Origin: Polyangium sp. 15x6
Lineage (GTDB): Bacteria > Myxococcota_A > Polyangia > Polyangiales > Polyangiaceae
Length of the DNA: 64,000 nucleotides
Assembly: GCF_029960785.1 (NCBI RefSeq)
Contig: NZ_JASBQE010000047.1
Coordinates: 1 to 64,000, forward strand
Reading direction: 5' to 3'
Shown here: positions 4,771 to 32,489 of the stretch, piece after piece
Layout: every line of letters starts with the position of its first letter
Numbering within the stretch: the first letter of the stretch is position 1
Program-made: the position numbers and the translations under genes
The notes under the pieces: model-generated
The model's database searches: none
Told to the model about the DNA's origin: nothing
What the model saw: the letters and a program-made list of their open reading frames with translations, nothing else

Positions 4771-4802
4771 GACCGCGATCACTTCCGCTCTCCCGCGGCA
4801 TC

Positions 4803-4978
4803 GATCGGCCATGCGGGTGAGAATGATCGGCCATGCGGTGGCGAATGATCGGCCATGCGGTGGCGAATGATCGGCCATGCGGTGGCGAATGATCCGCCAT
4901 GCGGGCGGGAAGGATCGGCCGTGCGGGCGGGAAGGATTGGCCGTGCGGTTGGGAAGGATCGGCCATGCGGGCGGGTCT
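4803..4978. repeat. Tandem array of eight exact-length 22-bp units
   Basis: Eight units begin with GATCGGCC or a close variant at 4803, 4825, 4847, 4869, 4891, 4913, 4935 and 4957. The middle units (4825-4890) are identical; outer units carry substitutions, for example GGTGGCGAA to GGCGGGAAG. No spacers occur, so it is not CRISPR. The array fills most of the 218 bp between the caspase stop and the stop of the convergent Cys-rich lipoprotein. Function unknown. Confidence 0.9.
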
Positions 4979-4988
4979 CGACCCTCGA

Positions 4989-5873
4989 TCAGGGCAGACA
5001 GAGCCCCGCCAATTCCTGGCAGGCGTTGCAATCGGCGCCCGGGCAGGGGTCGACCGCGACGCCCTCGCACGTCCCGCCGTTGCAGTCCGCGTCCGAGCTG
5101 CACCCGTCCACCGGGTAACAGCCCTGCGGGAAACCCCCCTGCACAGCGAAGCAGTCGGGGTAGGCCAGCCAGCGACAACCCTGGGCGTTGCCGCACTGGT
5201 TCATGTCCAGCATGGCGCACGCCGAGGTCGGCGTGCACGACGAGGGGCTGGATACCCACACGCCATTTTCGCAGGCAATCTGGGCCGGGCAGCCACTCGC
5301 ATCGAGGTACGCGCAGGTGTCCGACGAGCAGCATGCGTCGCAAGGCGTGCCGTCGACCGGCAGCGTGTCCGGGCAAGTCCGCTGGCAGGCATAGCCAGTT
5401 TCGCTGACGTACCACGTCTCGCCATCACACGACGCCTCGGCGCCGCCCCCGTCGCAGAGCGGATCGGGGTACCAACACCCCGTATAGTTGATGTCGCACG
5501 CGCTGCCATGGACGGGCTTCTCGGCAGGGCAAGGCTCCTCGCAGTCGCACCCGCACCCGGCGGGGTCGTAATAGGTGATGTCCCAGGCCCCGTCCGTGCA
5601 CTCCGCCACGGGGCCGTAGCCGCATTTGTCGGTGTAGCTGCACACCTGGCCCTCGACCGAGCAGAGGCCGAGCGAAAGGCTGAACTCCGGACAGCTCGGC
5701 TCGCACTGCGCGGGATCCTGGCACCCACCCGAGCCCCCGCCGCCGCTGTTCGTCGCCCCCGTGCCGCCGTCGCCCCCGTTTCCACCCGAGACCACCGCGT
5801 TCCCGCAGGCCGTGGTGACGGCAGCCGCGAGGAAGAGGGCTGCGAGGGCTCCGATGCGCTTCGTCAGGTTCAT
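4989..5873 (-). CDS. Cysteine-rich predicted lipoprotein
   Basis: 294 residues from the ATG at 5873, chosen because MNLTKRIGALAALFL starts a normal lipoprotein signal ending TTACG. Longer reading upstream would enter the repeat element. After a Gly/Ser-rich linker, the mature protein has more than 30 Cys spread in short repeats such as CPAEKPVHGSAC, CPDTLPVDGTPC and CSSDADCNGGTC. These look like the disulfide-rich modules (DUF-type, Dickkopf-like) common in surface lipoproteins of Polyangiales. No enzyme motif is visible. It is convergent with the caspase gene across the 22-bp array. A surface role is inferred. Confidence 0.8.
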   Translation of the reverse strand: MNLTKRIGALAALFLAAAVTTACGNAVVSGGNGGDGGTGATNSGGGGSGGCQDPAQCEPSCPEFSLSLGLCSVEGQVCSYTDKCGYGPVAECTDGAWDITYYDPAGCGCDCEEPCPAEKPVHGSACDINYTGCWYPDPLCDGGGAEASCDGETWYVSETGYACQRTCPDTLPVDGTPCDACCSSDTCAYLDASGCPAQIACENGVWVSSPSSCTPTSACAMLDMNQCGNAQGCRWLAYPDCFAVQGGFPQGCYPVDGCSSDADCNGGTCEGVAVDPCPGADCNACQELAGLCLP

Positions 5874-5980
5874 GGTCTTCAAGCTCCTCATCCAAGGCAC
5901 AGCCCGGCGCAGGATGGCGCGTCCGGCGTGCATCCCGGGCGCACGTTGCAACATCAGGGCCGGTATGCTCGGGGGCGTCT

Positions 5981-6284
5981 CGCCGGGGCTCTGCCCCGGG
6001 CCCCGCGGGGGCTATCCGCCCCTCGACCCGGACCAGGGCAAGCCCTGGACCTCAGGGGGAAGAACTGCGCGATGCGCAGTTCTTCCCACAGGCCGGTGGG
6101 ACCGCCCCGCCCGTCGAGACGTCAGCGCTGCTGTCTTGGTTGGCAGGATCGCTCGCCGGTCTTGACTTGGGCCTGTTCGATGAACTGCGCATCGCGCAGT
6201 TCATCGACCCCGGGTCCAGCGCTTGCGCTGGTCCGGGTCCAGGGGTGGACAACCCCTGGTCGGGTCCGGGGTGAAACCCCGGCG
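5981..6284. repeat. Composite palindromic element, copy 2
   Basis: A complete copy in the opposite orientation to copy 3. It begins CCGGGGCTCTGCCCCGG, runs through CCAGGGCAAGCCCTGG and a 13-bp-arm hairpin (6058-6086, loop GAT). Next comes a core of about 90 bp, then a 14-bp-arm hairpin (6178-6206) and arms ending CCGGGGTGAAACCCCGG. It occupies almost all of the 427 bp between the start of the Cys-rich lipoprotein gene and the stop at 6301, ending 17 bp from that stop. No gene is seen there. Confidence 0.88.
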
Positions 6285-6300
6285 CCACGGTTCGTGCTCG

Positions 6301-17318: not shown

Positions 17319-18479
17319 TCAGTCGCAGCCGACCCGGCGCATCCGGATTCCGGCGTCTTTCTCGGACCACGCCACGCCGAGCTCGCTCCCCGCGAACGCG
17401 ACCGCCGGGTAGCGGGCGTTTTTGCCCGAGACGCGGAGCGTGGCGCCGTCACGCGCGAGATCCGGGCCGAAGACCGAGAGGAAGATCGAGGGCGGACCGC
17501 CCTGGAACTGGTAGTAGGCGACGGCCGTGCGCTCGCCCATGACGGTCACGATGGGCCAGTTCGCGCTGCCCTCCGCGTCCTCGACGCGCACCTCGCCCTG
17601 CTTCGCGCCGCTCGAGGACGCGCGCGCGAGATAGATGCGCTCCACTCCCTCGCGCGTGTCCTCCCACGCGACGATCGACGCGCCGCTCGCGTCGATCGCC
17701 ACGCTCGGCAGCCGCGCCTCGCCGGCGCCCGTCCGCACCACCGTCCCGGTCACCGAGCTTCCGGGCATTCCCGTCGTCCGTGCGATCGAGAGCTCAGCGC
17801 CCGAGCTCCACGCCACGGCGAGCTCGTTGCCTCGGCTCGCGAGCGCCGGGAAACGCGCCCCGGGCAGCGCCGTCGTCGAGCTCATGCCCCCGCTGCTCAC
17901 GAGCCCGAGCCGCGCGCCCGGCGTCTCCATCCACGCCACGGCGAGCCCGCCGGACATCGGCGCCGTCGCGGGGCGTGCTTCCGTCGCATCGCTCGTGCCG
18001 AGCTGCATCGGCTGCCCGGTCGGCGCCCCGTCCGCGTCGAGCGTGTGCGCCTGGATCACGAGCCCGGACGGACCCGTGTCCTCCCACGTGATCATCGGCC
18101 CGCTGCTCGTCGTCTGCAGCGAGGGGACCGCGTGCACGCCTGCCAGCGTGGCCACGACGTGCGCAGGCGACACACTGCCGTCCGTGCCGATCCGCGCCAC
18201 CCGCACCTCCTCCGTCCCGCCCGTGAGCGTCTGCCACGCGACGAGGTAGCTCCCGTTCACCCACAGGATCGAGGGCGTCGTCCCGTCCTCCTGGCTCACG
18301 ACCACCGTCCCGCCGAGCGGCGTGCATGCCGCCTTTTCGCCGCCCGGCCCTGCATCGGTCGTCGCCGGCGGCTCGGGAGGCTTCGCCCCGGACGGCTCCG
18401 GCGCCTCGTCGCTCCCGCAACCGAGGGCCCCGAGCGCCGCTCCGAGCCCCAGCACAAACATCAAGGACATCCGCACCAT
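17319..18479 (-). CDS. Predicted beta-propeller-like lipoprotein
   Basis: 386 residues, ATG at 18479. Lipobox ALGCGS (Cys about 21) and an acidic/Pro linker precede six or seven beta repeats with Trp-rich signatures such as YLVAWQTL, MITWEDTG, GLAVAWMETPG, LAVAWSSG, SIVAWEDTREG and LGVAWSEKD. This W-x-D periodicity is typical of surface beta-propellers in Polyangiales with no known ligand. It lies 47 bp upstream of the CDP-alcohol gene on the same strand and could share its transcript, but no functional link is evident. Confidence 0.8.
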   Translation of the reverse strand: MVRMSLMFVLGLGAALGALGCGSDEAPEPSGAKPPEPPATTDAGPGGEKAACTPLGGTVVVSQEDGTTPSILWVNGSYLVAWQTLTGGTEEVRVARIGTDGSVSPAHVVATLAGVHAVPSLQTTSSGPMITWEDTGPSGLVIQAHTLDADGAPTGQPMQLGTSDATEARPATAPMSGGLAVAWMETPGARLGLVSSGGMSSTTALPGARFPALASRGNELAVAWSSGAELSIARTTGMPGSSVTGTVVRTGAGEARLPSVAIDASGASIVAWEDTREGVERIYLARASSSGAKQGEVRVEDAEGSANWPIVTVMGERTAVAYYQFQGGPPSIFLSVFGPDLARDGATLRVSGKNARYPAVAFAGSELGVAWSEKDAGIRMRRVGCD

Positions 18480-18710
18480 AGGTATCCCCCCTGATCACGC
18501 GCCAGCCTGCCCGGGGCGCCGCGCGCGCACGCCGCGCCGCGAGGTTCGTGCGTGGTTCAACGCCCGCATCCCTCGCTCGGACCTCCGGCCAAGATTCGAT
18601 TCAGTATGCGATGCCACCAACTCTCGGCCACGCCGTACGCTGGCAACGAATTCGTCCGTTCATACACCACGAATGTGCGTGAATGTGTTTGTTGGGGCAC
18701 AATCGATCGC

Positions 18711-19325
18711 ATGCAGCATCGAGTGCGCGGAGGGGGGCGCTTCCGGTGGATCGGGGCGCTGGGGCTCGTGGGGGTCCTCGGGGGCGGGGAGGCGCGCGCA
18801 GAGCCTGCGCGGGGAGGGGCGCCCGCGACGGCGAACCCAACGACGGTGGCGGTCCCGATTCCGGGATCCGATCTCGTGCGAGGGCGCGCGAAGGTGATCG
18901 TCGCCGCGCCGATCGACGCCGTGCGCGCGCGGGTGCTCGCGTTCGGCGACTACGCGCGGTTCATGCCGCATTACAGCCGCTCGAAGATCCTCGGCCGCAC
19001 GAAGAGCGGTGATCGCGAGATCTACATGGAGGTCACGGCGCTGCACGGCGCGGTGCGCTTCTGGGCGCGGATGGCCGTTCGCAAACTCGTGGCAGCAGCG
19101 GGAGGCGTCGAGACCTACGACGTCTCGATGCTGGAGGGCAACGTGAAGGACTTCCACGCGGTGTGGCGCCTGCGCGCGATCGACGAAGCGCACACCGAGC
19201 TCGAACTCGAGCTCTTCCTCTTGCCGCGCTTGCCGCTGCCCACGACCTTGCTCAACACGGAGAACCTCCAGGGCGCAAGCAAGGGCGTCCGCGCGATGCG
19301 ATCGTTCGTGGAGGGAAAACGCTGA
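18711..19325 (+). CDS. Exported START/SRPBCC-like lipid-binding protein
   Basis: 204 residues from the ATG at 18711, chosen because it starts a signal peptide (RWIGALGLVGVLGGGEARA). The mature part is an SRPBCC/polyketide-cyclase-like fold: VIVAAPIDAVRARVLAFGDY begins the typical first strand and helix, followed by MPHYSRSKILGR and a long C-terminal helix. Such proteins bind hydrophobic ligands in a deep cavity; an exported form may handle membrane lipids. It is divergent from the propeller lipoprotein (231 bp between) and followed 22 bp later by a repeat element. The fold is likely; the ligand is unknown. Confidence 0.78.
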   Translation: MQHRVRGGGRFRWIGALGLVGVLGGGEARAEPARGGAPATANPTTVAVPIPGSDLVRGRAKVIVAAPIDAVRARVLAFGDYARFMPHYSRSKILGRTKSGDREIYMEVTALHGAVRFWARMAVRKLVAAAGGVETYDVSMLEGNVKDFHAVWRLRAIDEAHTELELELFLLPRLPLPTTLLNTENLQGASKGVRAMRSFVEGKR

Positions 19326-19346
19326 AGGCTCCCCTGGGAGCCGTTT

Positions 19347-19648
19347 CGCTGGGGCGTTGCCCCAGGCCCCACCGGGGCTATCCGCCCCTGGACCCGGACC
19401 AGCGCAAGCGCTGGACCCAGGGTCGATGAACTGCGCGATGCGCAGTTCATCGAACAGGCCGAGTCAAGACCGGCGAGCGCCCCTGCCCATCAAGACAGCC
19501 GCGCTGCCCTTTCGACGGGCAAGGCTCTCTCACGGGCCCGTTGGAAGAACTGCGCATCGCGCAGTTCTTCCACCCCGAGTCCAGGGCTTGCCCTGGTTCG
19601 GGTCGAGGGGCGAACAGCCCCCGCGGGGTCCGGGGCAGCGCCCCGGCG
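19347..19648. repeat. Composite palindromic element, copy 3 (complete)
   Basis: A clear full copy. CTGGGGCGTTGCCCCAG, CCAGCGCAAGCGCTGG and the 14-bp-arm hairpin with GAT loop form the left arm. A 90-bp core with TCAAGACCGGCGA and a second ATCAAGAC follows. The right arm repeats the plan in inverse order, with the 13-bp-arm hairpin ending about 19571, CCAGGGCTTGCCCTGG and CCGGGGCAGCGCCCCGG. It sits between convergent stops at 19325 and 19696; the 370-bp gap holds nothing else. Confidence 0.9.
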
Positions 19649-19695
19649 AAGCGCCCCAGACGAGACCAATGCTTGGGGGTGAGGGACTCGTCCCG

Positions 19696-20082
19696 CTACG
19701 GACAACCGGCCGGCGCCGTGTCCGTGTACGCCGTGATCACACAGCCTTCGAGCGCTGGGATGAGGTCCTCGCACGTCGCCTTCGCCTTGTAGAACTCGAG
19801 GCAACCGTCGACGCTGCCCTTGTCGTACTGCAGGCACTCGGCGCTGAACTCCGCGCGCAAAAAGCCCGGACACGTGCGCGACGAACCCACGCATCCGAGC
19901 GAGAGCATCCGATCGCTGTGAGCGTCGATGAGCGTGTTGCACGCGTCGTCCTCGGTCGTGCGCTCGCCGCTCGCTGGCGGACGGAACCTCCCGTCGTCGG
20001 GCAGGGGCGTGAGGTCGATATCGTCTCCGCCGCACGCGGCGAGGAGCATGGAGAGGACGATCGCGACGCGGAGCTCTCGCAC
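19696..20082 (-). CDS. Small predicted lipoprotein with conserved Cys pattern
   Basis: 128 residues from a GTG at 20082, 5 bp after the MarR stop. The signal peptide VRELRVAIVLSMLLAACGG gives a lipobox (LAAC). The mature part has six Cys spaced like CNTLID, CVGSSRTCPGFL, ECLQYDKGSVDGCLEFYKAK and CEDL, a helical disulfide-linked pattern that recurs in other lipoproteins here (for example at 34302). Cotranscription with marR is likely. Function unknown. Confidence 0.78.
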   Translation of the reverse strand: MRELRVAIVLSMLLAACGGDDIDLTPLPDDGRFRPPASGERTTEDDACNTLIDAHSDRMLSLGCVGSSRTCPGFLRAEFSAECLQYDKGSVDGCLEFYKAKATCEDLIPALEGCVITAYTDTAPAGCP

Positions 20083-20087
20083 GGGGC

Positions 20088-20582
20088 CTACTCTTTCTCG
20101 TTGAGGAGGGCTAGCGCGAGCGAGCCGAGCACGTCGCGGGCCGAGGAGACTTTCCGCGGCGGGAGCTTCGAAAGCGAGCGCCGTACGGTGGCCTCTACCG
20201 TGCCGATCTTCAGCCCGTCGAGCTCGCGCCCGCGCGCCGTCAACTCGAAGAGCGCGCGACGCGCGTCGTCCGGATCGGGCTTGCGTCCGATGATGCTGCG
20301 CGACTCGAGCCGCTTCAGGATCCCCGTGAGCGTGCTCGGGTGGATGTGCAGCACGCTCGCGAGCTCGCCCGCGGAGATCCCCGGGAAGCGCCCCACGATC
20401 CGGATCACGAGGCGTTGCGGGCCCGTGACGCCGAGCGACGCCTCCATGCGCTTCGACATCGACTGCAGGGCGTGATCCACGGCCCAGAGCAGGCGCATGA
20501 AATCCAGGACCTCGCCGAGCTTCTCGGACTTGTCCGCCTTCTGCTTCTTCTTTTCGCTCTTTTCGCTGGGTGCTGCGCTCAT
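20088..20582 (-). CDS. MarR-family transcriptional regulator
   Basis: 164 residues. After a Lys-rich leader (EKSEKKKQKADKSEK), residues about 30-150 form a MarR winged helix: GVTGPQRLVIRIVGRFPGI, ELASVLHIHPSTLTGILKRL and the wing with DPDDARRALFELTARG. MarR dimers usually repress nearby genes and let go when a phenolic ligand or oxidant is sensed. It is divergent from the GH15/antiporter pair with 213 bp between, so those genes or its own operon are the likely targets. A lipoprotein gene follows 5 bp downstream. Confidence 0.92.
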   Translation of the reverse strand: MSAAPSEKSEKKKQKADKSEKLGEVLDFMRLLWAVDHALQSMSKRMEASLGVTGPQRLVIRIVGRFPGISAGELASVLHIHPSTLTGILKRLESRSIIGRKPDPDDARRALFELTARGRELDGLKIGTVEATVRRSLSKLPPRKVSSARDVLGSLALALLNEKE

Positions 20583-20795
20583 GACCGAGCCAATTCCCTT
20601 TCCGCCGAGCGAGCCACGCTAGCCCACCTCGCCCCGTCGATCGAGATCGTCGAAGGGTGCACCGCGCTGAGACTCGCGCGGCGGCGCCAGACGACCCGTC
20701 GGAACGAAACGCGTCGAGGTTCCCCACGGACGATCGTTTTTTGCTCCGACGGTTTTTCTTTTGAGGGGCAACGACAGGCAGGCCATCCTTGCCCT

Positions 20796-22562
20796 GTGCG
20801 ACTCGAGGATCTTGCCGTCATCGGAAACTGCCAATATTCCGCGCTGATAGACCGCATGGGGTCGATCGTGTGGTGTTGCCTGCCGCGCTTCGACGCCGAG
20901 CCGGTCTTCTCCTCTCTGCTGGACGAGCAGGGCGGGGGGGTCTTCACGGTCGGCCCGGCGGGTGGTGAGCCGGGAGTGCAGCGATACCTTCCGAACACCA
21001 ACATCCTCGAGACGACCTTCCGGTCGTCCTCCGGCGCCTTCCGGGTGCTCGACTTCGCGCCGCGTTACTTCCAAAATGATCGGTTCTTCCGGCCGACCAT
21101 GATCGTGCGGATCGTCGAGCCGATCTCGGGCATGCCGCGCGTCCGCGTCCGCTGCGAGCCGCGGCTCGGCTGGAGCAAGGGCACCCCCGGCCGGCTCGTC
21201 GGCTCGAACCACATCCGCTACGAGGGCTTCGGCGCCCCGCTCCGCCTCACGACGGACATCCCGCTCTCGTACATCACCGACATCCCGTTCGCGCTCACGG
21301 GCAGAAAGCACCTCGTGCTCGCGTGGGGCCCGCCGCTCGAGGAGTCGCTCCCCACGGCCTGCGCTCATTTTCTCGGGCAAACGCAGCGCTACTGGGAGCG
21401 CTGGGTCATGCACTGCGACATCCCGCCGCTCTTCCAGCAAGAGGTCATCCGCTCGGCGCTCGCGCTCAAGCTTCATTGCTTCGAGGACACGGGCGCGATC
21501 GTCGCGGCCATGACGACGAGCATCCCCGAGGCGCCGGGCAGCGGCCGCAACTGGGACTATCGTTACTGCTGGCTGCGCGACGCCTACTACGCGCTCGCGG
21601 CGTTCCGGCTGCTCGGCCACTTCGAGGAGCGCGAGCAGTTCATCCAGTACCTCTTCAACATCGCCGAATCCGCCGCGCCTTCGCTCTCGCTCGGCCCGCT
21701 CTATCGTGTCGACGGCACGCCCGACCTCGAAGAGTCCATCCTCGACGCCTGGCCCGGCTACGAAGGACATGGCCCGGTGCGCGTCGGCAACGCGGCGTCC
21801 ACGCAGCTCCAGCACGACGTCTTTGGGGAGATGGTCCTCGCGCTCGCGCCCGTCTTCCTCGACGATCGCTTCGTCGCCGAACGATCGACGCACGGACTCG
21901 ATCTCCTGGAGCGGCTCGCGCAGAAGGCGATCGAGGTGGCGGGCACGCCGGACGCGGGCATCTGGGAGTTCCGCTCGGACGCGCGCCCGCAGACCTTCTC
22001 GAGCCTCATGTGTTTCTGCGCCGCCGAGCGCATGGCGCGCGTCGCCGAGCGCCACCGCCCTGCGCGGGCGAACCATTACCGCGCCGCGGCCGAGCGCATC
22101 CGCGCCGAGATCGTGGAGAGGGCCTGGCGCCCGGATCTGAACTCGTTCGTATCGAGCTACGGCGGCGAGGAGCTCGACGCCGCGCTCCTCCAGATGGCGC
22201 CCTTGCGCTTCTTGCCGCCGAACGATCCACGCCTGCACGGCACGATCGACGCCATCCGTGATCGCCTCTCGCAGGGCGGCTGGCTCATGCGTTATCGCGG
22301 CGACGAGTTCGGCGAAACGAGCGTCGCGTTCATCATCTGCACGTTCTGGCTCTGCGAGGCGCTCGCGGCCGTGGGCCGCAAGGCCGAGGCGCGCGAGGTG
22401 CTCGACCGCGCGCGATCCGCGCTCTCGCCGGTCGGCTTGCTCTCGGAGGATTACGAGACCCGAAACCTGCGGATGTGGGGTAATTTCCCCCAGGCCTACT
22501 CCCACGTGGGCCTCATCCACGCAGCGTTCGCGTCCTCGCCACCGTGGTCCGACATCCTTTAA
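20796..22562 (+). CDS. Glycoside hydrolase family 15 protein (glucoamylase/trehalase type)
   Basis: 588 residues from the GTG at 20796 (VRLEDLAVIGNCQYSAL), which matches where the N-terminal trehalase-like beta domain (DUF5911 type) normally begins. The (alpha/alpha)6 barrel covers about 215-580. Signatures are GRNWDYRYCWLRDAYY, the PVRVGNAA-type stretch VRVGNAASTQLQHDVFGEM, and MRYRGDEFGETSVAFIICTF. No signal peptide, so it is cytoplasmic. Family members hydrolyse trehalose, maltose-type glucans or similar alpha-glucosides from the non-reducing end with inversion. Its stop overlaps the next gene start by 19 bp, giving translational coupling to a cation/proton antiporter. Exact substrate is not predictable. 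Confidence 0.9.
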   Translation: MRLEDLAVIGNCQYSALIDRMGSIVWCCLPRFDAEPVFSSLLDEQGGGVFTVGPAGGEPGVQRYLPNTNILETTFRSSSGAFRVLDFAPRYFQNDRFFRPTMIVRIVEPISGMPRVRVRCEPRLGWSKGTPGRLVGSNHIRYEGFGAPLRLTTDIPLSYITDIPFALTGRKHLVLAWGPPLEESLPTACAHFLGQTQRYWERWVMHCDIPPLFQQEVIRSALALKLHCFEDTGAIVAAMTTSIPEAPGSGRNWDYRYCWLRDAYYALAAFRLLGHFEEREQFIQYLFNIAESAAPSLSLGPLYRVDGTPDLEESILDAWPGYEGHGPVRVGNAASTQLQHDVFGEMVLALAPVFLDDRFVAERSTHGLDLLERLAQKAIEVAGTPDAGIWEFRSDARPQTFSSLMCFCAAERMARVAERHRPARANHYRAAAERIRAEIVERAWRPDLNSFVSSYGGEELDAALLQMAPLRFLPPNDPRLHGTIDAIRDRLSQGGWLMRYRGDEFGETSVAFIICTFWLCEALAAVGRKAEAREVLDRARSALSPVGLLSEDYETRNLRMWGNFPQAYSHVGLIHAAFASSPPWSDIL

Positions 22563-23896
22563 GGAGGAGCCTCCTCCTCTTCTTCCTCCTCTTCGGCGCG
22601 CTCCTTCCTTCGATCGCCTTCGGCTCGGAGGGGAGCGCGCATGCCGATCCCATCGGCGCCGTCGTCCTTTACCTCGCCGTGATCCTCGCCGCGGCCAAGC
22701 TCGGAGGGGATCTCGCGGTCCGGATCGGCCAGCCGGCCGTGCTCGGCGAGCTCGTCTTCGGCGTCTTGCTCGGCAACCTCGGCGCGCTCGGGTTCTCGGG
22801 GTTCGAGCCGATCAAGACGGACGCGAGCATCGACATGCTCTCGCGGCTCGGCGTGCTCGTCCTCCTCTTCGAGGTCGGGCTCGAATCGACGGTCGCGCAG
22901 ATGCTCGAGGTGGGCGTCACGAGCTTCTTCGTGGCCACGCTCGGCGTCGTGGCGCCCTTCGCGCTCGGCTGGCTCCTCGGCGCGTGGATCCTGCCCGATG
23001 CGAGCCCGTACGTGCACGCCTTCCTCGGCGCCACGCTCACCGCCACGAGCGTCGGCATCACCGCGCGCGTGCTGCAGGATCTGAAGGAATCGCAGAGCCC
23101 GGAGGCGCGCATCATCCTCGGCGCGGCCGTCATCGACGACGTGCTCGGGCTCGTGATCCTCGCGGTCGTCACGGGCATCATCGGCGCGGCCGATCGCGGC
23201 GGCTCGATGAGCTACGGCGAGATCGGGATCGTCTTCGGCAAGGCCCTCGCGTTCCTCGTCGGCTCACTCGTGATCGGCGCGAAGGTCTCCCGGCGCCTCT
23301 TCTCCATCGCCTCGCGCCTGCGCGCCCGCGGCGTCCTGCTCGCGCTCGGGCTCGCGTTCTGCTTCCTCTTCGCGTGGATCGCGGGCCTCATCGGCCTCGC
23401 CCCGATCGTGGGCGCGTTCGCCGCGGGCCTCGTGCTCGAGGACATGCACTTCCGCGACTTCACCCTGCGCGGTGAGTCGACCCTCGAGCACCTCATCCAG
23501 CCGATCTCGTCGTTCCTCGTACCGATCTTCTTCGTGCTCATGGGCATGCGCACGGACCTCGGCGCCTTCGCGCAGCCAGGCGTGCCGCTGCTCGCGGCGG
23601 CGCTCACGGGCGCGGCGATCGTCGGCAAGCAGGCGTGCTCGCTCGGTGTGGGCAAGGGGGTCGATCGGCTGAGCATCGGGATCGGCATGATCCCCCGCGG
23701 CGAGGTCGGGCTCATCTTCGCGAACATCGGCCAGTCGCTCACCGTGGGTGGCAAGCCCGTGGTCTCCGGCGCGGTCTTTTCGGCCGTGGTGGCGATGGTC
23801 ATCGTCACCACGATGGTCACGCCGCCCGCGCTCGAGTGGAGCCTGGCCCGGCGCGCGGCCAAGCCGCCGAAGACGCCGCTCCCCGACGCGCATTGA
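22544..23896 (+). CDS. CPA2-family cation:proton antiporter
   Basis: 450 residues, GTG start inside the end of the GH15 gene. It begins with a signal-like hydrophobic stretch and then has about 12-13 membrane helices. Typical Na_H_Exchanger features are present: GQPAVLGELVFGVLLGNLG, the TSVGITARVLQDL loop, AAVIDDVLGLVILAVVTG with the paired Asp residues needed for ion exchange, and GMIPRGEVGLIFANIG near the end. It should exchange Na+ or K+ for H+ across the inner membrane. No TrkA-N/RCK regulatory domain is attached. The overlap with GH15 suggests a common stress role (osmotic or pH), which is inference. Confidence 0.92.
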   Translation: MVRHPLRRSLLLFFLLFGALLPSIAFGSEGSAHADPIGAVVLYLAVILAAAKLGGDLAVRIGQPAVLGELVFGVLLGNLGALGFSGFEPIKTDASIDMLSRLGVLVLLFEVGLESTVAQMLEVGVTSFFVATLGVVAPFALGWLLGAWILPDASPYVHAFLGATLTATSVGITARVLQDLKESQSPEARIILGAAVIDDVLGLVILAVVTGIIGAADRGGSMSYGEIGIVFGKALAFLVGSLVIGAKVSRRLFSIASRLRARGVLLALGLAFCFLFAWIAGLIGLAPIVGAFAAGLVLEDMHFRDFTLRGESTLEHLIQPISSFLVPIFFVLMGMRTDLGAFAQPGVPLLAAALTGAAIVGKQACSLGVGKGVDRLSIGIGMIPRGEVGLIFANIGQSLTVGGKPVVSGAVFSAVVAMVIVTTMVTPPALEWSLARRAAKPPKTPLPDAH

Positions 23897-23927
23897 CCTT
23901 GCGAGGCGGTGCTCGTAACACCGATCT

Positions 23928-25313
23928 GTGGACGCGCTGCGCACCGACCTCTACCAGCTCACGATGGCCGCGGGGTACTTCCACCGCGGCATGCAAGACA
24001 GGCGCGCGACGTGCGAGATGTTCGTGCGCCGCTTGCCGCGGAGGCGTCGGTACCTCCTCGCGATGGGGATCGAGCGGCTGCTCGGCTACCTCGAGGACCT
24101 CTCCTTCACCGAGGACGAGATTCGCTACCTGCGCGATATCCCGGCGCTACGCGACGCGATGACGGAGCCGTTCGTCGAGTACCTCCGGCGCTTCCGGTTC
24201 CGGGGCGACGTCTCGGCCGTCCGTGAGGGCACGGTGGTGTTCGCGAACGAGCCGCTCGTGCGGATCTCGGCGCCGATCATCGAGGCGCAGATCGTCGAGA
24301 CCTTCCTGCTCTCGGTGGTGAACCACGCGACGATGATCGGGTCGAAGGCGGCGCGCGTGGTGCGCGCGGCGGGGAGCGCGGGCGTGATCGAGTTCGGCAC
24401 GCGGCGCACGCACCCGGAGGCGGCCGTGGACGCGGCACACAGCGCGTACGCCGCGGGGTTCGTGGGCACGTCGAACGTGGAGGCGGGCAAGCGCTTCGGC
24501 ATCCCCGTCATGGGCACGGCCGCGCACATCTGGACCATGGCGCACGCCACGGAAGAGGAGGCGTTCGAGAACTACGTCGCCACGTTCCCGAACGCGTCGA
24601 TCCTGCTCATCGACACATACGACACGCTCCGTGGGGCCGAGCGCGCGGCGCGCATCGCCAAGGACAAGCTGAAGGGCGTGCGGCTCGACTCGGGTGATCT
24701 GCTCGCGCTCTCGCGCGCGGTGCGTCCCATCCTCGACGCGGCCGGGTGCACGTCGGCGAAGATCGTCGCGTCGGGGGATCTCAACGAATACAAGATCGAA
24801 GCGTTGCGCCGCGCGGGCGCGCCGATCGATCTGTACGGCGTGGGCACGGATCTCGTGGCGAGCATCGACTCGCCCGCGCTCGGCGGCGTCTACAAGCTCG
24901 TCGAGATCGAGCAGGAGGGGAATGTCGTCCCGATCTGCAAGTTCTCCGAGGGCAAGGCCACGTTCCCCGGGCCGCACCAGGTCTACCGCTTCGTCGACGG
25001 CGCGGGCGTGCTCGCGCGTGACGTGATCGCGCTGGCCGACGAGGATCCGCGCGGGCTCGGCGAAGGAGAGCCCGAGGCGTTGCTCGTGCCGCGCATGACG
25101 AACGGAGCGCGCACGGAGCCGGCCGAGGGGCTCGACGTGGTGCGCGCGCGGGTCGCGCGGGAGCTAGCGCGTTTGCCGGAGGCGCTCCACGTGCTCGACG
25201 AGGCGCCGCCGCCCACGGAGCGCACGGACGAGCCATTCCGCGCCGTGCCCTCCGCGCGACTGCTCGAGCTCGTGGAAGATGTACGCGCCCGGGTCGTGGG
25301 GGCAGCGACGTAG
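23928..25313 (+). CDS. pncB: Nicotinate phosphoribosyltransferase
   Basis: 461 residues, GTG start. It makes nicotinate mononucleotide from nicotinate and PRPP using ATP, the first committed step of Preiss-Handler NAD salvage. Hallmarks include DLYQLTMAAGYFHRGM at the N-terminus, FGTRRTHPEAA (the active-site His region), GTAAHIWTMAH, VRLDSGDL and ASGDLNEYKI with GVGTDLVAS. Length is normal. It lies 31 bp after the antiporter and 12 bp before pncA, heading a four-gene cofactor operon with pncA, a NUDIX gene and coaE. Confidence 0.95.
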   Translation: MDALRTDLYQLTMAAGYFHRGMQDRRATCEMFVRRLPRRRRYLLAMGIERLLGYLEDLSFTEDEIRYLRDIPALRDAMTEPFVEYLRRFRFRGDVSAVREGTVVFANEPLVRISAPIIEAQIVETFLLSVVNHATMIGSKAARVVRAAGSAGVIEFGTRRTHPEAAVDAAHSAYAAGFVGTSNVEAGKRFGIPVMGTAAHIWTMAHATEEEAFENYVATFPNASILLIDTYDTLRGAERAARIAKDKLKGVRLDSGDLLALSRAVRPILDAAGCTSAKIVASGDLNEYKIEALRRAGAPIDLYGVGTDLVASIDSPALGGVYKLVEIEQEGNVVPICKFSEGKATFPGPHQVYRFVDGAGVLARDVIALADEDPRGLGEGEPEALLVPRMTNGARTEPAEGLDVVRARVARELARLPEALHVLDEAPPPTERTDEPFRAVPSARLLELVEDVRARVVGAAT

Positions 25314-25325
25314 GAGGGAAGGATC

Positions 25326-25976
25326 ATGCGAACGATCTTCGTCGACGTGGATGTGCAGAACGATTTCTGCGAACCGAGCGGCTCGCTTTACGTGAAGGGA
25401 TCGCCGACCGACGCGATGCGGAAGCTCGTCGCGTACGCGGTCGCGCATCACATCCCGATCGTCGGATCGGTCGACTCGCACGCCTGGGACGCGTGGGAGT
25501 TCGCCTCCACCAGCGGCACGGGTCCGAACGGGGAAAAGCCCAACTTTCCGGACCACTGTGTGAAGGGTACGCCGGGCTGGCTGAAGGTCGACGGCACGCT
25601 GCCACCGCGCTTCCGGTTCGTGCCGAACGTCGCGGACGCGCCGATCGCGCCGATCGTGGACGAGGTCGTCCGCGGCGCCACGCAAGGCGTGTACTTCGAG
25701 AAGGAGGTCTACAGCCTCTTCGTGAATCCACTCGCCGATCCGTTCGTGAAGGCGCTCGCCGCTCGGTACGACGAGCCGCTCTCGTTCGTCGTCTTCGGCG
25801 TGGCCACGGACTACTGCGTGCGCGCCGCGGCGCTCGGGCTCGCGGAGCGCGGGTATGCGACGACGCTGGTCACCGATGCGAGCGCAGGCATCACGGAGGA
25901 GGGCGTCGCGCGTGCGCTGGAAGAGATGAAGAGCGCCGGCGTGAAACTCGCGAAGTCGTCCCAGGTGATGCGGTGA
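25326..25976 (+). CDS. pncA: Nicotinamidase (isochorismatase superfamily)
   Basis: 216 residues. Turns nicotinamide into nicotinate for the enzyme encoded just upstream. Catalytic residues are visible: Asp9 in VDVQNDF, the Lys in YFEKEVYS, and the nucleophile Cys in VATDYCVRAAALGL. Metal ligands appear in SVDSHAWD. The cis-peptide region VFGVATDY is intact. Its ATG is preceded by GGAGGG. The stop overlaps the NUDIX GTG start (GTGA), so translation is coupled. The gene order pncB-pncA is a direct pathway order. Confidence 0.94.
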   Translation: MRTIFVDVDVQNDFCEPSGSLYVKGSPTDAMRKLVAYAVAHHIPIVGSVDSHAWDAWEFASTSGTGPNGEKPNFPDHCVKGTPGWLKVDGTLPPRFRFVPNVADAPIAPIVDEVVRGATQGVYFEKEVYSLFVNPLADPFVKALAARYDEPLSFVVFGVATDYCVRAAALGLAERGYATTLVTDASAGITEEGVARALEEMKSAGVKLAKSSQVMR

Positions 25977-26542
25977 GCGACAAGGAGTACCCGAAGCCGA
26001 GCTTGACGGCGGACGTCGTCACGTTCTCGCTCGACGACGAGGGCCGTATCTCCGTGCTGCTCATCCAGCGCGGCAAGGATCCTTTCGCGGGGCGATGGGC
26101 GATCCCCGGCGGGTTCTGCGAGCCCTCGGAGACGGTGCGCGAGAGCGCAGCGCGCGAGCTGGTGGAGGAGACGGGCATTCGAGATCTGCCGATGGTCGAG
26201 CTCGGCGTGTTCTCGCGGCCAGGCCGTGATCCACGCGGATGGGTCGTGAGCGTCGCGCACGTCGCGATTCTCCCAGCCGACCGGCGCGACGAGGCGAAGG
26301 GCGGCGACGACGCGCGAGCCGCGAAGTTCTTCTCGATCGGCCTGGACGAGCGTGGTCGCGTGACGCTCACGGCCGACGGCGAGGAGGCGGGCCCACTCGC
26401 ATTCGATCACGACGAGATCCTCGCGCGGTCGATCGCGCGGCTCGAGGCGAGCTCGGACATGCTGGGGCCGATGCTCTTCGGTCGACCCATGTCGGGCGAA
26501 GAGGCGCAACGAGCGATCGAGACGGCGCTCTCGCGAGGATGA
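25973..26542 (+). CDS. NUDIX hydrolase (ADP-ribose pyrophosphatase/NrtR-like)
   Basis: 189 residues from the GTG that overlaps the pncA stop. The NUDIX box is complete: GGFCEPSETVRESAARELVE then ETGI, within residues about 45-68. The N-terminal SLTADVVTFSLDDEGRISVL matches the ADP-ribose/NrtR branch. NrtR also has a C-terminal winged helix that represses NAD genes; the tail here (about 140-189) is short, so hydrolase activity seems more likely than repression. In this operon it probably clears ADP-ribose or oxidised nucleotides formed during NAD turnover. coaE starts 1 bp after its stop. Confidence 0.9.
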   Translation: MSDKEYPKPSLTADVVTFSLDDEGRISVLLIQRGKDPFAGRWAIPGGFCEPSETVRESAARELVEETGIRDLPMVELGVFSRPGRDPRGWVVSVAHVAILPADRRDEAKGGDDARAAKFFSIGLDERGRVTLTADGEEAGPLAFDHDEILARSIARLEASSDMLGPMLFGRPMSGEEAQRAIETALSRG

Positions 26543-26543
26543 A

Positions 26544-27158
26544 ATGGCCTTCGTATTCTTCGGCCTGACGGGCGGAATCGCGTGCGGCAAGAGCACGGTC
26601 GCAGCGCGCTTGCGCGAGCAAGGCGTGCAGGTGATCGACGCAGACGTGGTGGCGCGTCAGGCCGTCGCACCGGGGACGAGCGGGCTCACGGAGATCGTAA
26701 AACTGTTCGGCGAAGGCGTGCTTCGGCACGACGGCACGCTCGATCGAGGCAAGCTCGGGGCAATCGTGTTCGGCGACGAGGAGAAGCGCCGCGCGCTGAA
26801 CCGGATCCTGCACCCACGCATCGGTGCGCGGACGATGATGCTCGCGCAAGAACTCGCCCAGCGCGGCGAGCCGCTCGCATGTTACGAGGCAGCGCTGCTC
26901 GTGGAGAACGGTCTGCAGGACGCCTTCCGCCCGCTCGTCGTGGTGACCGCACCCGAAGAGGTGCAGGTCCAGCGCACGATGGTGCGCGACGGGCTCGACG
27001 AGAAGGCAGCACGCGCGCGAATCCGCGCGCAGATGCCAGTCGCCGAGAAGGTAAAGGTCGCCGACTACGTAATCGACACGAGCGGCACGATGGAGCAAAC
27101 GATCCAGCGCGCCGACGAGGTACTCGCCGCGATCCGCGCGAAGGCAGCCGAGAGCTAG
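26544..27158 (+). CDS. coaE: Dephospho-CoA kinase
   Basis: 204 residues, normal length. Phosphorylates the 3' hydroxyl of the ribose of dephospho-CoA, the last step of CoA synthesis. The P-loop GGIACGKST (10-18), the substrate motif VIDADVVARQAV, HPRIGARTM and the lid RDGLDEKAARARIRAQMP are all present. It is the last gene of the pncB-pncA-NUDIX-coaE unit, starting 1 bp after the NUDIX stop. A repeat element starts about 25 bp after its stop and may end the transcript. Confidence 0.95.
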   Translation: MAFVFFGLTGGIACGKSTVAARLREQGVQVIDADVVARQAVAPGTSGLTEIVKLFGEGVLRHDGTLDRGKLGAIVFGDEEKRRALNRILHPRIGARTMMLAQELAQRGEPLACYEAALLVENGLQDAFRPLVVVTAPEEVQVQRTMVRDGLDEKAARARIRAQMPVAEKVKVADYVIDTSGTMEQTIQRADEVLAAIRAKAAES

Positions 27159-27183
27159 GCGGTTTCAACCTGGGGACGTGGAG

Positions 27184-27483
27184 CCGGGGCGCTGCCCCGG
27201 ACCCCGCGGGGGCTGTCCGCCCCTCGACCCGGACCAGGGCAAGCCCTGGACTCGGGGTGGAAGAACTGCGCTCCGCGCAGTTCTTCCAACGGGCCGGTGA
27301 GACAGCCTTGCCGGTCGAAATGTCAGCGCGGCGGTCTCAGTTGGCAGGCCTGCTCGCCGGTCTTGCCTCGACCTGTTCGATGAACTGCGCATTGCGCAGT
27401 TCATCGACCCCGGGTCCAGCGCTTGCGCTGGTCCGGGTCCAGGGGCGGATAGCCCCGGTGGGGCCTGGGGCAAAGCCCCAGCG
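27184..27483. repeat. Composite palindromic element, copy 4 (complete)
   Basis: Runs from CCGGGGCGCTGCCCCGG through CCAGGGCAAGCCCTGG, a hairpin GGAAGAACTGCGC with loop TCC (about 27259-27287), the core, a GATGAACTGCGC hairpin with loop ATT (27378-27406), CCAGCGCTTGCGCTGG and CTGGGGCAAAGCCCCAG. It fills the gap between convergent stops at 27158 and 27498 and ends about 14 bp from the latter. No gene is seen. Confidence 0.9.
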
Positions 27484-27497
27484 AGACGCCTCCGTAC

Positions 27498-28004
27498 TCA
27501 AACGCGCCTCGCGCGAAGCGTGGCTTCGTCGCGGGCCCAGGTGACGCGGATGAATGCGGCTGCGTTGCCGCCTTGGTCGGGGTGCGTCTCCAGCGCGAGA
27601 CGTCGGAAGGCGCGGCGGATGTCGTCTGGGGAGGCGGTCTTTGGCAGGCCGAGGACTTCGAAGGGGCAGATGTCGGGTTCGGCGACGGAGGGCACGAATC
27701 TGCGACGTTTCTGTCGTGAATCCTTGGGCGGTGGTTCTTCGTGGCGGGTGCGTTCTTTGGACTCGACCCACGGCGACTGACCTGCTTGCACGCGGATCCA
27801 GGCGCGCGCCCAGATGGCTTCGACCTCGCGCAGGGGCTGGCCGGCGGCGCGCTCGGCTTGCTTGCGTGCTTCTTCGAGCGTCTTGGCCCCGCCGGAGAAG
27901 GCGTCTGGCTTGCGGAAGGGCGTGCGCGTGGGCTCGCCCGTCCACCAGGCGCACCAGAGATAACGACGGCGCTTGGTGGTGGTGATGGAGACGACGCCGG
28001 ACAT
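27498..28004 (-). CDS. J-domain (DnaJ-like) protein with novel N-terminal region
   Basis: 168 residues. The C-terminal 60 residues are a J domain: DICPFEVLGLPKTASPDDIR, then FRRLALETHPDQGG with the HPD triad, and a final helix that ends soon after. HPD stimulates Hsp70 ATPase. The N-terminal 105 residues (LWCAWWTGEPTRTPFR, EARKQAERAAGQPLREVEAI) are of a kind I do not recognise and may choose the client. J domains are usually N-terminal, so the C-terminal placement is uncommon. Divergent from the AraC regulator with 86 bp between. Confidence 0.85.
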   Translation of the reverse strand: MSGVVSITTTKRRRYLWCAWWTGEPTRTPFRKPDAFSGGAKTLEEARKQAERAAGQPLREVEAIWARAWIRVQAGQSPWVESKERTRHEEPPPKDSRQKRRRFVPSVAEPDICPFEVLGLPKTASPDDIRRAFRRLALETHPDQGGNAAAFIRVTWARDEATLRARRV

Positions 28005-28090
28005 GAGAGACTTCGGCGCGAAGGATGGCTGCGAAGTGGGGGGCTGTCACGTGGTCGACGCTGCGGCGATGCGAGACCACGCTCTTGCTC

Positions 28091-28933
28091 ATGCCGTCGT
28101 TGATGTACCGACCTGGGGCTCCGCTGGGTGCGTTCGTCGACTGCTTCTGGCACTACGACGGCGACCCTGCGCCTGCGGCCCGTGAGCGTGCTCTTCCCTC
28201 TGGCAGCCTCGATCTCGTCATCAACCTCGACGCCGATTGCCTCGAGTTCTTTGCGGTCGATGCCGTGACGCCGCTCGGGCCGCTGCCTGGCATCGTGCTC
28301 AGTGGCGCCGCTGCTGGCTTCGTCACCATCGGCCCGCGACCACGAACCACCGTCATGGGCGTGCACTTCAAGCCGGGCGGCGCGTTTCCTTTTCTTGGTG
28401 TTCCGGCTGGTGACCTCGAAGGCGTGCAGGTCCCGCTCGAAGCGCTCTGGGGCCCGAGCGCGCGCGAGCTGCGGGAACGCCTCGCCGAGGCCGCCACGCC
28501 AACCCAACGCTTCGCGATGCTCGACGCTTGCTTGCGCGAGCGCGCGCGGAGACCGCTCGAGCGCCATCCCGCTGTCGCCGAAGCGCTCCGCGCCTTCGAG
28601 GATCCGTGGCTCGAGAGCGTGGCGCAGGTCAACGCGCGCACCGGCCTGTCGCCGCGCCAGCTCATCGCGCGTTTTCGCGACCAGGTCGGGCTCGCGCCGA
28701 AGAGCTACTGGCGCGTGCGACGTTTCCAGGCGGCGCTGCGACATCTGGAAAGCGCGCGCGACGCGCGCGGCGCCGCGATCGCCGCCGAGCATGGCTACTT
28801 CGACCAGGCCCACTACAACCGCGACTTCCGCGCGTTCACCGGCATGAGCCCGCGCGAGTATCTCGCGCGCGAATACGCGCGCCCGAACCACGTGCCCTTG
28901 CGCGGCAAAAATATCCAAGATCCCACCGCCTGA
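28091..28933 (+). CDS. AraC-family transcriptional regulator
   Basis: 280 residues from the ATG at 28091 (MPSLMYRPGAPLGAF), chosen as the usual start of this subfamily; 28025 is also open. The N-terminal ligand domain (about 5-150) is of the DUF6597 type (FVDCFWHYDG, ALPSGSLDLVINL). The C-terminal AraC domain (about 170-265) has GLSPRQLIARFRDQVGLAPK and FDQAHYNRDFRAFTGMSPRE. Members often control nearby enzymes; the methyltransferase gene 18 bp downstream is the natural target or partner. The inducer is unknown. Confidence 0.9.
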   Translation: MPSLMYRPGAPLGAFVDCFWHYDGDPAPAARERALPSGSLDLVINLDADCLEFFAVDAVTPLGPLPGIVLSGAAAGFVTIGPRPRTTVMGVHFKPGGAFPFLGVPAGDLEGVQVPLEALWGPSARELRERLAEAATPTQRFAMLDACLRERARRPLERHPAVAEALRAFEDPWLESVAQVNARTGLSPRQLIARFRDQVGLAPKSYWRVRRFQAALRHLESARDARGAAIAAEHGYFDQAHYNRDFRAFTGMSPREYLAREYARPNHVPLRGKNIQDPTA

Positions 28934-28951
28934 GCGCGGCACGGTCTGCGC

Positions 28952-29764
28952 ATGGACCATCCCGTCGAGACCACCGCTCTGCTCGTCGCCGCGATGCGCG
29001 CCGAGGAATCCACCCGCGGCGATCGCCTCTTCGAAGACCCCTTCGCGCACGACCTCGCAGGCGAGGCTGGACGCGCCGCGCTGCGCGACTACCGCGCCGC
29101 CACCGGCGCTTCCATTCCGATCATCGAGGTGCGCACGCGCTACTACGACGAGGCCCTCCTCCGCGCGCAAGACGCGGGCATCACGCAGTTCGTGATCCTC
29201 GCCGCCGGCATGGACGCGCGCGCGTATCGCCTCCCGTTTCACGGTCATGCGCGGTTGTTCGAGCTCGATCAACGCGCGATGATCGAGACCAAGGCGCGCG
29301 GCCTCTCCGCGGCGGAGCCTCGTTGTGATCGGCGCGCGCTCGCCGTGAATCTCGCCGAAGACTGGCCCGCCGTGCTCCTCGCTGCGGGCCTCGATCCGAA
29401 CGCGCCTACGGCTTGGCTCGCCGAAGGGCTCTTGCAGTATCTCGAGGCGAGCGTCGTGCATGGCCTCTTCGAGCGGATCGGTCGCCTCTCGGCCCGGGGC
29501 TCGGTCTTGCTCTACGACGTCGTCGGCGAAGCGCTCCTCTCGGTCATGCGCGAGTCCGTGCTCCGCTACATGCGCGAGCTCGGCGCGCCGTGGATCTTCG
29601 CGACCGACGACCCCGCTTCGCTCGCCGCCGCGCACGGCTTCCAGGCTGACATCACGGACGCGAGCGTGATCGGCAATGCGTGGGGTCGCTGGCCCTTTCC
29701 CGCCGCGCCGCCGGGCGTGCCCGGTGTCCCGCGCGGCTACCTCGTGGAAGCCCACAAACGCTGA
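28952..29764 (+). CDS. Class I SAM-dependent methyltransferase (TIGR00027/leucine carboxyl MT type)
   Basis: 270 residues. N-terminal MDHPVETTALLVAAMRAEES and DRLFEDPFAHDLAG, the SAM-binding loop FVILAAGMDARAYRL, acidic FELDQ, and WLAEGLLQYLEASVV identify the family that methylates carboxyl or hydroxyl groups of small molecules, often in secondary metabolism. It is downstream of the AraC gene (18 bp), probably one transcript. A long 21-bp tandem array begins 10 bp after the stop, unusual for a gene end. Confidence 0.92.
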   Translation: MDHPVETTALLVAAMRAEESTRGDRLFEDPFAHDLAGEAGRAALRDYRAATGASIPIIEVRTRYYDEALLRAQDAGITQFVILAAGMDARAYRLPFHGHARLFELDQRAMIETKARGLSAAEPRCDRRALAVNLAEDWPAVLLAAGLDPNAPTAWLAEGLLQYLEASVVHGLFERIGRLSARGSVLLYDVVGEALLSVMRESVLRYMRELGAPWIFATDDPASLAAAHGFQADITDASVIGNAWGRWPFPAAPPGVPGVPRGYLVEAHKR

Positions 29765-29773
29765 ACGACTGTG

Positions 29774-30130
29774 CCCTTGCGGGGAGCGACTGTGCCCTTG
29801 CGGAAAGCCGTCCCGCCCTTGCGGAACATCGTCCTGCCCTTGCGGGAAGCGACCCCGCCCTTGCGGAACATCGTCCTGCCCTTGCGGGAAGCGACCCCGC
29901 CCTTGCGGAACATCGTCCCGCCCTTGCGGGAAGCGACCCCGCCCTTGCGGAACATCGTCCCGCCCTTGCGGAACATCGTCCCGCCCTTGCGGAACATCGT
30001 CCCGCCCTTGCGGAACATCGTCCCGCCCTTGCGGAACATCGTCCCGCCCTTGCGGAACATCGTCCCGCCCTTGCGGGAAGCGACCGAGCCCTTGTGGAAC
30101 GCGACCCCGCCCTTGTGGAACGTGACCCCG
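29774..30130. repeat. Tandem array of about 17 units of 21 bp
   Basis: Units recur every 21 bp from CCCTTGCGG at 29774. Two subtypes exist: one continues GGAAGCGACCCCG, the other GAACATCGTCCCG. They alternate in the first part, then the second type repeats eight or nine times without change from about 29942, and the last units diverge (CTTGTGG). Because 21 is a multiple of 3, several frames stay open; none shows codon use or a start like a gene. It fills the 427 bp between the methyltransferase stop and the start at 30192. Confidence 0.92.
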
Positions 30131-30191
30131 TCCTTTGGGTGCCTGTCTTGATGTTCAGTGTTCGTCGTGGCAGCCTGAGCCCCGGGAGCGC

Positions 30192-31502: not shown

Positions 31503-32014
31503 AGAGGTTCGTCCTGGCGCTCGCAGCGCTCCTCGCAGCGCCGAGCTGTGGATACCGAGTCGTGGGCGCCGAAGCAGCCTCCGCAAGCCCACTCGCCGTC
31601 CTACCCGCACCCGGCGTGGTCGCATCCGCCGTGGCCGAAGAGGGCGTCGTCGCCGGCGCACGCGCCGAGCTGGCCGCCACAGGTCTCCTCGCCTCATGTG
31701 ATCCCCGCACCGACACACGATGCCCAGCCCTCGTCGTCGAACTCGTACGCGTGGAGGAAGGCGGCGCCGCGCTAGGCGTCGAAACCCGAGACGGCCCACC
31801 CCTCGCACGCTCCGTAGTCTTCACACTCCGCGCCCGCGCCTTCATGCGTCGCACAAAAGACGCCCCCCCCGAACGTCTCGGCCCCGACCTCACCGTGCGC
31901 GAATTCGCCGCCCGACAGGACGACCCCACAGCGTTCCACGCAACCCGCGAAGAAACCCTCCGCCGCGCAGCCGAGCGCCTCGGCGCGCTACTCGTGCGTC
32001 GAGCTCTGGAGTGA
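31499..32014 (+). CDS. LptE-like outer-membrane lipoprotein
   Basis: 171 residues, GTG start coupled to the exonuclease stop. Lipobox APSCGYRVVG (Cys 17) followed by Gly-Tyr-Arg is the usual mature start of LptE, the plug partner of the LptD translocon that delivers LPS to the outer membrane. The rest is alpha/beta with a long C-terminal helix (REETLRRAAERLGALLVRR), as in LptE. Sequence identity in this family is very low, so the call rests on lipobox, size and helix pattern. lptD is not nearby. A repeat element begins 12 bp after the stop. Confidence 0.6.
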   Translation: MKRFVLALAALLAAPSCGYRVVGAEAASASPLAVLPAPGVVASAVAEEGVVAGARAELAATGLLASCDPRTDTRCPALVVELVRVEEGGAALGVETRDGPPLARSVVFTLRARAFMRRTKDAPPERLGPDLTVREFAARQDDPTAFHATREETLRRAAERLGALLVRRALE

Positions 32015-32025
32015 GCCACGGCGTA

Positions 32026-32368
32026 GCGCCGGGGTTTCACCCCGGACCCCGACCAGGGGTTGTCCACCCCTGGACCCGGACCAGCGCAAGCGCTGGACTC
32101 GTGGTCGATGAACTGCGCGATGCGCAGTTCATCGAACGGGCCAGGTCAAGACCGGCGACAGTCTTGCCAGTCGAAACCGCAGCGTCGACGTGCCTGCTCG
32201 AGCTGGGGCAGCGCTGCTGTCTCGGCTGGCAACACCGCTCCTGGTCTTGCGACGGGCCCGTCCGAGAAACCGCGCATCGCGCGGTTTCTCGGCCCTCGGT
32301 CCAGGCCGTGCCTGGTCCGGGGTGCAGGGGGCGGACAGCCCCCTGCTGGGGTGCGGGGCGACGCCCCG
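32026..32368. repeat. Composite palindromic element, copy 5 (divergent hairpins, longer core)
   Basis: The left arm matches other copies (CCGGGGTTTCACCCCGG, CCAGCGCAAGCGCTGG, GATGAACTGCGC hairpin with GAT loop). The right arm has a hairpin of different sequence, CCGAGAAACCGCGC with loop ATC (32262-32292), 14 perfectly paired bp, and CCAGGC-CGT-GCCTGG. The core is about 125 bp and itself an inverted repeat around a GTCAAGACC unit. It fills most of the 475 bp before the DUF72 gene; after it comes a short run of GCCTCC (32368-32391) and nothing else I can name. Confidence 0.87.
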
Positions 32369-32489
32369 CCTCCGCCTCCGCCTCCGCCTGGGGGTTTGCC
32401 CACTGGGCTCGACCCGTGTGCGGGTTCCTCGGGGCGGGGCCTTTCTCCAGCAATGACAAACAGCGGCGCGTACGCTACCGTGGGGAGCG

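Follow-up and report, generated by a model that had tools for sequence, protein, structure and literature searches.

The dispersed repeat of Polyangium sp. 15x6 described here belongs to a genus-wide, high-copy family of MITEs, a known kind of element whose architecture and cargo are in this case new as far as we have searched. Its copies, about 336 to 371 bp long with the ends given below and a 9-bp duplication, are very probably MITEs mobilized in trans by a DDE transposase, for which an IS4-family (IS10-like) enzyme is the likeliest candidate. The window analyzed comprises 64,000 nucleotides with a G+C content of 70%, namely, positions 1 to 64,000 of contig C217 of the organism's own genome (G000, 13.4 Mb in 275 contigs).

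A sequence-only reading of the window had named seven places carrying a dispersed repeat. The repeat is real, as a direct-repeat search that recovered these places independently (repeat families D3, D4, D5, D7, and D10) and a covariance model of the arm agree. The model found 12 arms in the window at 90 to 134 bits each. This model (R1) was built from 30 arms that include 8 of these 12, so that only the four arms within 19343 to 19652 and 27178 to 27487 are independent of it. The intervals originally proposed stop short of the terminal ~25 nt at either end, which are worn in most copies.

On the minus strand, the element at 5977 to 6288 consists of a type I arm (5977 to 6087, +), a core, and a type II arm (6177 to 6288, −), and 14 nt separate it from the stop of a minus-strand gene call (end 6301). 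The plus-strand element at 19343 to 19672 has its type II arm at 19343 to 19453 (+), a core, and its type I arm at 19542 to 19652 (−). A remnant of its right end, GAGACCAATGC, is found at 19662 to 19672, and convergent genes lie on both sides. The copy at 27178 to 27487 (−), with a type I arm (27178 to 27288, +), a core, and a type II arm (27377 to 27487, −), lies 21 nt behind a stop codon at 27158, and GGTTTCAA at 27161 is a possible remnant of its left end. At 32023 to 32375 (+), the arms occupy 32023 to 32135 (+) and 32262 to 32375 (−), the second being divergent with CGAGAAACCGCGC as fourth hairpin. The copy given as 1 to 197 is present but incomplete: the contig start truncates this plus-strand element, leaving a 3′ part (1 to 201) with a type I arm at 91 to 201 (−). 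What had been taken for a half copy at 56001 to 56104 is instead a member of a single-arm class (55997 to 56104, +), with a different fourth hairpin (GCATCGACCGC/GCGGTCGATGC) and convergent gene neighbors. The copy placed at 60687 to 61358 is a long-core variant (60684 to 61362, strand not assigned) that has two arms of the same type (type II; 60684 to 60795, +, and 61251 to 61362, −) around a core of 457 nt.

The long core (60795 to 61251) can be aligned with its counterpart in G148, with a core length of 457 to 554 nt in the two species, and repeated motifs were seen by eye within it. Elsewhere in the window, 22-bp GATCGGCCATGCGGTGGCGAAT-like units stand in tandem at 4781 to 4992 (repeat family D6), and 16 staggered repeat copies with a 21-bp spacing (family D1) overlap a long ORF at 29710 to 30177.

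Arms on opposite strands were found, as expected of the inverted pair first proposed, but they are of two distinct types, with the fourth hairpin reading GGAAGAAC... in type I and CGATGAAC... in type II. Among 135 distinct double elements with a core shorter than 200 nt, 115 paired type I with type II, 3 were homotypic, and 17 had an unclassed arm; one arm of each type was thus present in 115 of the 118 classified copies, with long-core copies such as that at 60684 to 61362 as exceptions. The likeness of arms between elements was 0.88 (I-I) and 0.90 (II-II), versus 0.79 between the two arms of an element. In the alignment, the core has by eye one reading direction, from II to I. The two arm types and the directional core indicate that the element is a unit with distinct left and right ends, in the order type II, core, type I.

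The true ends, missed by the first reading, were revealed by a tail shared across copies in the outer flanks. The terminal sequence YTGAGCAT(T/G)GGTYTCAT is inverted at both ends, 336 to 371 bp apart. In the organism's own genome, GCATTGGTYTCA occurs 24 times (reversed control, 0). An arm adjoins 23 of these 24 exact motifs, 20 have CTGA in front, and the remaining one resembles a deleted remnant. In 2.12 Mb, 53 of 54 near-exact end sites adjoin an arm, and the other is an apparent chance match. The two-sided pattern CAT(T/G)GGTYTCAT was found in 12 complete copies in the six genomes (G148, 6; G152, 3; G000, 2; G151, 1; none in G149 or G150), with none in the reversed control.

All 16 copies examined (the 12 complete and 4 nearly complete ones) carry the outer YTGAG on at least one side. 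The two 9-bp flanks agree at no fewer than 8 positions in 9 of the 16 (L288, L305, L307, L309, L313, L317, L318, L319, and L320), versus 2 of 240 mismatched pairings. The other seven (L172, L292, L295, L310, L312, L315, and L316) fall below this level, and the flanks of L316 fit a 10-bp duplication instead. Mean flank identity is 0.74 at a length of 9 and 0.29 to 0.41 at lengths of 5 to 8 and 10 to 12, so that the signal is confined to length 9. These 9-bp target duplications are taken as proof that the element moved by transposition, as DNA. Judged on its length alone, an element of 336 to 371 bp between outer ends is too short for a transposase of its own.

CTGA-type ends and a 9-bp duplication are expected of a derivative of the IS4 family (IS10 group), and both are present. 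The element end starts with CTGAG and is identical to the IS10 end CTGAGAGATCCCCTCAT at 11 of 17 positions, and the IS10-type copy examined has the 9-bp repeat AGCTTGGCC at both flanks. Given these likenesses in ends and duplication, we infer that the mover was an IS4-like (IS10-like) DDE transposase, acting in trans on the element ends. Unlike IS10 and its family, the Polyangium element is too small to hold a transposase, and its parent was not found in the sequence searched. Queries (phmmer) with the IS10 and IS186 transposases against the ORFs of 2.52 Mb, from partly overlapping loci, returned no relative. Neither the 24 sites with an exact end in the own genome nor the 54 near-exact sites in 2.12 Mb included an autonomous copy, a search that leaves room for a parent with diverged ends. 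A transposase gene with arm-sharing ends had also been envisaged, but at arm-carrying contig ends no gene-bearing transposon with arms as ends was seen, and the breaks fall in the core.

A protein of ~520 amino acids encoded beside the arm-like match in G153 (L082, G153:C141, 348 to 1907) was considered as a mobilizer and rejected, as none of the six Polyangium genomes had a match to it. It has no Pfam match above the cutoff and no NCBIfam match for its first 476 amino acids, and its C-terminal end appears winged-helix-like by eye. Of 183 genomes from the order, 6 have matches to it, several per genome and some broken, and the gene looks like a mobile one.

The element had been likened to either a MITE or a BIME. 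The first likeness is borne out by terminal inverted repeats and 9-bp duplications, but the second is not. In REPINs and BIMEs, two REP-like hairpins form an inverted doublet, which a RAYT (Y1) enzyme mobilizes in single-stranded form as DNA. As described in two reports on these elements and on GTAG and CGTC REPs (PMC3116915, PMC3733652), they share with the Polyangium element the inverted hairpin doublets, the extragenic location, and the place behind genes, and heterodimers are preferred in most REP families (PMC3733652). Moreover, hairpin loops of 3 nt and stems with no excess of G·T would suit a DNA-level hairpin. However, the Polyangium arm has four hairpins and measures ~110 nt, compared with 20 to 40 bp for a REP (PMC3733652), and the element has a 9-bp target duplication. 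In addition, PF01797 (Y1, RAYT) has matches in only three of the six element-carrying Polyangium genomes, the three without a match including G149 (two contigs), and no arm lies within the 3.2- to 3.4-kb loci of the four matches. A REPIN/RAYT origin is largely refuted by these PF01797 searches, and we regard it as highly improbable.

The prediction of very many copies genome-wide was right. The DNA search gave at least 40 full or nearly full copies (40 of 429 candidates scored), and the arm search gave at least 150 arms, all with E values of ≤1.9e-16 (150 of 15,565 candidates scored). There are 29 elements per 448,460 bases in contigs C198 and C217 of this genome, 6 per 400,000 bases in an even sample of G149, and 15 per 400,000 bases of G150. 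Plain extrapolation gives roughly 900, 200, and 500 elements per genome, respectively. The proposed covariance-model search of this genome and other Polyangiales yielded many more copies, with strong matches only in Polyangium: all six genomes of the genus (G000 and G148 to G152) matched the arm model strongly, and of 177 other genomes of the order one matched, weakly (G153, 57.8 bits). Among 377 genomes sampled across the phylum, strong matches came from four Polyangium genomes and weak ones (44 to 47 bits) from G269 and G422; the large genome searches used stricter filters and scored limited candidates, so that weak relatives can be missed.

Of 14 contig ends of the own genome, on contigs chosen for a nearby arm, 9 lie within 20 nt of the inner end of the arm. 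At L034 to L042, contigs of G000 start or stop just inside the element core. Since contigs begin and end at this position, the palindromes of the element probably break the assembly at some contig ends.

The comparison of empty and filled sites that had been suggested was run between Polyangium species, and both states were found. The site at 19344 is occupied in G000 and G148 and empty in G149, G150, and G152 (G151 is not alignable). G000 and G148 carry different elements there, whose type II arms lie on opposite sides. The site at 60684 to 61362 is full in G000 and G148, holds just one arm in each of G149 and G151, and is empty in G150 and G152. C198:279115 is occupied, whereas at its G150 counterpart two genes converge and their stop codons overlap (TATTAAAAC). 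At C198:249329, both the own genome and G150 are occupied, and here too the type II arm lies on a different side in each. These differences between species suggest that turnover is fast, with sites being reused repeatedly or copies being exchanged by recombination.

Lone arms with GCATCGACCGC as fourth hairpin form a second class that shares the arm with the double elements. The best-preserved member, L133, has CTGAGAGGGTGTTCCACAG-type ends on both sides. Other lone arms have end traces at one side or none, and the ends of the window copy at 55997 to 56104 are worn. Since some double elements, such as L020, have the tail of the single-arm class at one side, arms and tails seem to have been exchanged between the classes. 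A small palindromic element at L130:11378-11506 (G149) has a pair of ends of the single-arm class (CTGAGAGGGTGTTCC-type) but no arm and may represent another small type of MITE in the genus.

Four hairpins, H1 to H4, follow one another in each arm. H1 reads CCGGGGC..GCCCCGG or CTGGGGC..GCCCCAG, H2 reads GGGGC TGTCC GCCCC, H3 reads CCAGCGCAAGCGCTGG, and H4 has a 13-bp stem; the loops of H1 and H4 are 3 nt long. Across 30 arms, pairing holds for 98.9% of 1009 cells, compared with a shuffle mean of 92.5%. Both partners changed in 12 pairs, a count above the shuffle mean of 7.0 that no shuffle out of 500 reached, although related sequences can beat such shuffles without any structure. Further pair types, one of five shuffle measures, numbered 16 against a shuffle mean of 19.0, with no excess over chance. 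Sliding the partners destroyed the covariation signal, and together with the near-perfect stems, these controls make the local hairpins of the arm secure. The TCC in the H2 loop also pairs with a downstream GGA in a pseudoknot-like manner. The middle pair of this pairing is C-G in 26 and U-A in 4 of the 30 arms, and among 227 arms it is C-G in 191, T-A in 32, G-C in 3, and T-G in 1. In L018 and similar arms, both partners have changed in two of the three pairs (CGC/GCG). The H2 stem and its loop pairing (columns 44 to 46/60 to 62) overlap, and both are kept.

Mismatches in the stems of 227 distinct arms (6642 cells) comprise 4 G·T, 11 A·C, and 19 others, a count that leaves out 11 of 238 distinct arms as too short and excludes beforehand, as not a real pair, arm pair 36-52 (216 cells: 96 G-T and 6 A-C); with this pair included, there are 100 G·T and 17 A·C in 6858 cells. 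The H2-loop pairing has 3 G·T and no A·C in 681 cells. Since the stems show no G·U preference, it seems that DNA, or both strands, is what the constraint or the copying process acts on.

This pattern bears on whether the arms are a structured-RNA family, regulatory or of the 3′ untranslated region, spread by duplication and gene conversion with the transposon ends as hitchhikers. Such a family would account for the covariation, including the pseudoknot-like pairing, for arms located behind stop codons, for a similar arm with a different set of ends, and for sites that hold quite different copies in two species. A selected RNA should, however, tolerate G·U over A·C, contrary to the stem counts, and the 3-nt loops of H1 and H4 and the target duplications, which mark movement as DNA, also argue against it. 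Rfam gave no match at the gathering score in the 64-kb window and none at an E value of ≤1 in four element loci. We consider an RNA family unlikely.

Many copies lie directly behind the stop codons of genes. Of 252 distinct arms, 161 follow a coding stop by no more than 30 nt. The 33 elements with two called neighbors, taken from C198, C217, and the G149 sample without the blocks of five relatives and without two elements at a stretch edge, comprise 18 convergent, 11 tandem, and 4 divergent cases, with element-free noncoding bases distributed as 20, 51, and 29%, respectively; gene calls come from our own codon model, not from annotation. In tandem gaps, 10 of the 11 elements are no more than 31 nt from the stop of the upstream gene, versus 1.9 expected (P = 7e-9, with the 31-nt threshold picked after looking at the data). 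Among the complete copies, 9 of 12 are within 45 nt of a stop, and three of these nine sit 6 to 36 nt inside the 3′ end of a rejoined ORF. The remaining complete copies lie 167 nt (L315) and 94 nt (L319) from a stop and, for L320, within an ORF. This position may reflect either target choice or survival.

The arms appear to outlast the ends. With a regular expression, a tail was recognized for 27 of the 252 arms, including one or more doubtful cases, and the arm stems are nearly perfect; as arms were found through similarity to intact arms, decayed ones are undercounted. From the position behind genes and the arms outlasting the ends, we infer that old copies act as two-way 3′-end structures. 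A terminator scan of 18000 to 34000 in the window gave 7 terminator-like sites versus 8.1 expected from shuffles, with none at elements, which counts against an ordinary U-tract terminator there.

It is possible, though we lean against it, that the near-perfect hairpins are a functionless by-product of replication template switching in palindromes, and that the 3′-end position reflects survival. This account concerns the arms and their position and is compatible with a MITE. Near-perfect pairing, stems without an excess of G·T over A·C, and 3-nt loops would follow from it, and selection would remove insertions near promoters or within genes; L320, within an ORF, also fits. Correction of a single hairpin would not, however, yield two overlapping pairings that are both kept, as for the H2 stem and its loop pairing, or the double changes of L018.

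For the MITE favored here, the sequence of events would start with the IS4-family-type transposase acting on the ends and with an insertion that duplicates 9 bp of target. New copies would enter within or beside gene 3′ ends, whether by target choice or survival. Terminal sequences would afterwards wear away while the hairpin arms persist, possibly because, when transcribed, they work as two-way 3′-end structures, as a terminator or in mRNA 3′ protection. We propose only tentatively that the arm is a selected 3′-end module (two-way terminator or mRNA protector) and the cargo of two transposon families, delivered behind stops, with ends that wear and hairpins that the host keeps.

A comparable element is MITEAba12 of Acinetobacter, described in its report (PMC6382973) as a short nonautonomous element that derives from an insertion sequence and whose target duplications were studied. 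The Polyangium element is likewise short and nonautonomous, but covarying hairpins in series, arranged in two distinct arms, make up its interior, its copies lie behind genes, and no parent was found in the sequence searched. The family is not described in the literature covered on myxobacterial and Polyangium repeats, REPIN/RAYT systems, bacterial MITEs, and IS4/IS10, a search of partial texts that mostly excluded subscription journals. The earlier statement that no described family was recognized holds for this literature and for Rfam.

With the ends and target duplications of a mobile family now defined in Polyangium, a genus with large genomes, insertion age, target choice, and the domestication of gene 3′ ends become measurable. 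A like arm under two sets of ends, with strand-symmetric covariation, would open to testing the old question of what places repeats behind genes in bacteria. If the arm is indeed a selected 3′-end module, the genus would have rewired hundreds of gene 3′ ends using one mobile structured part.
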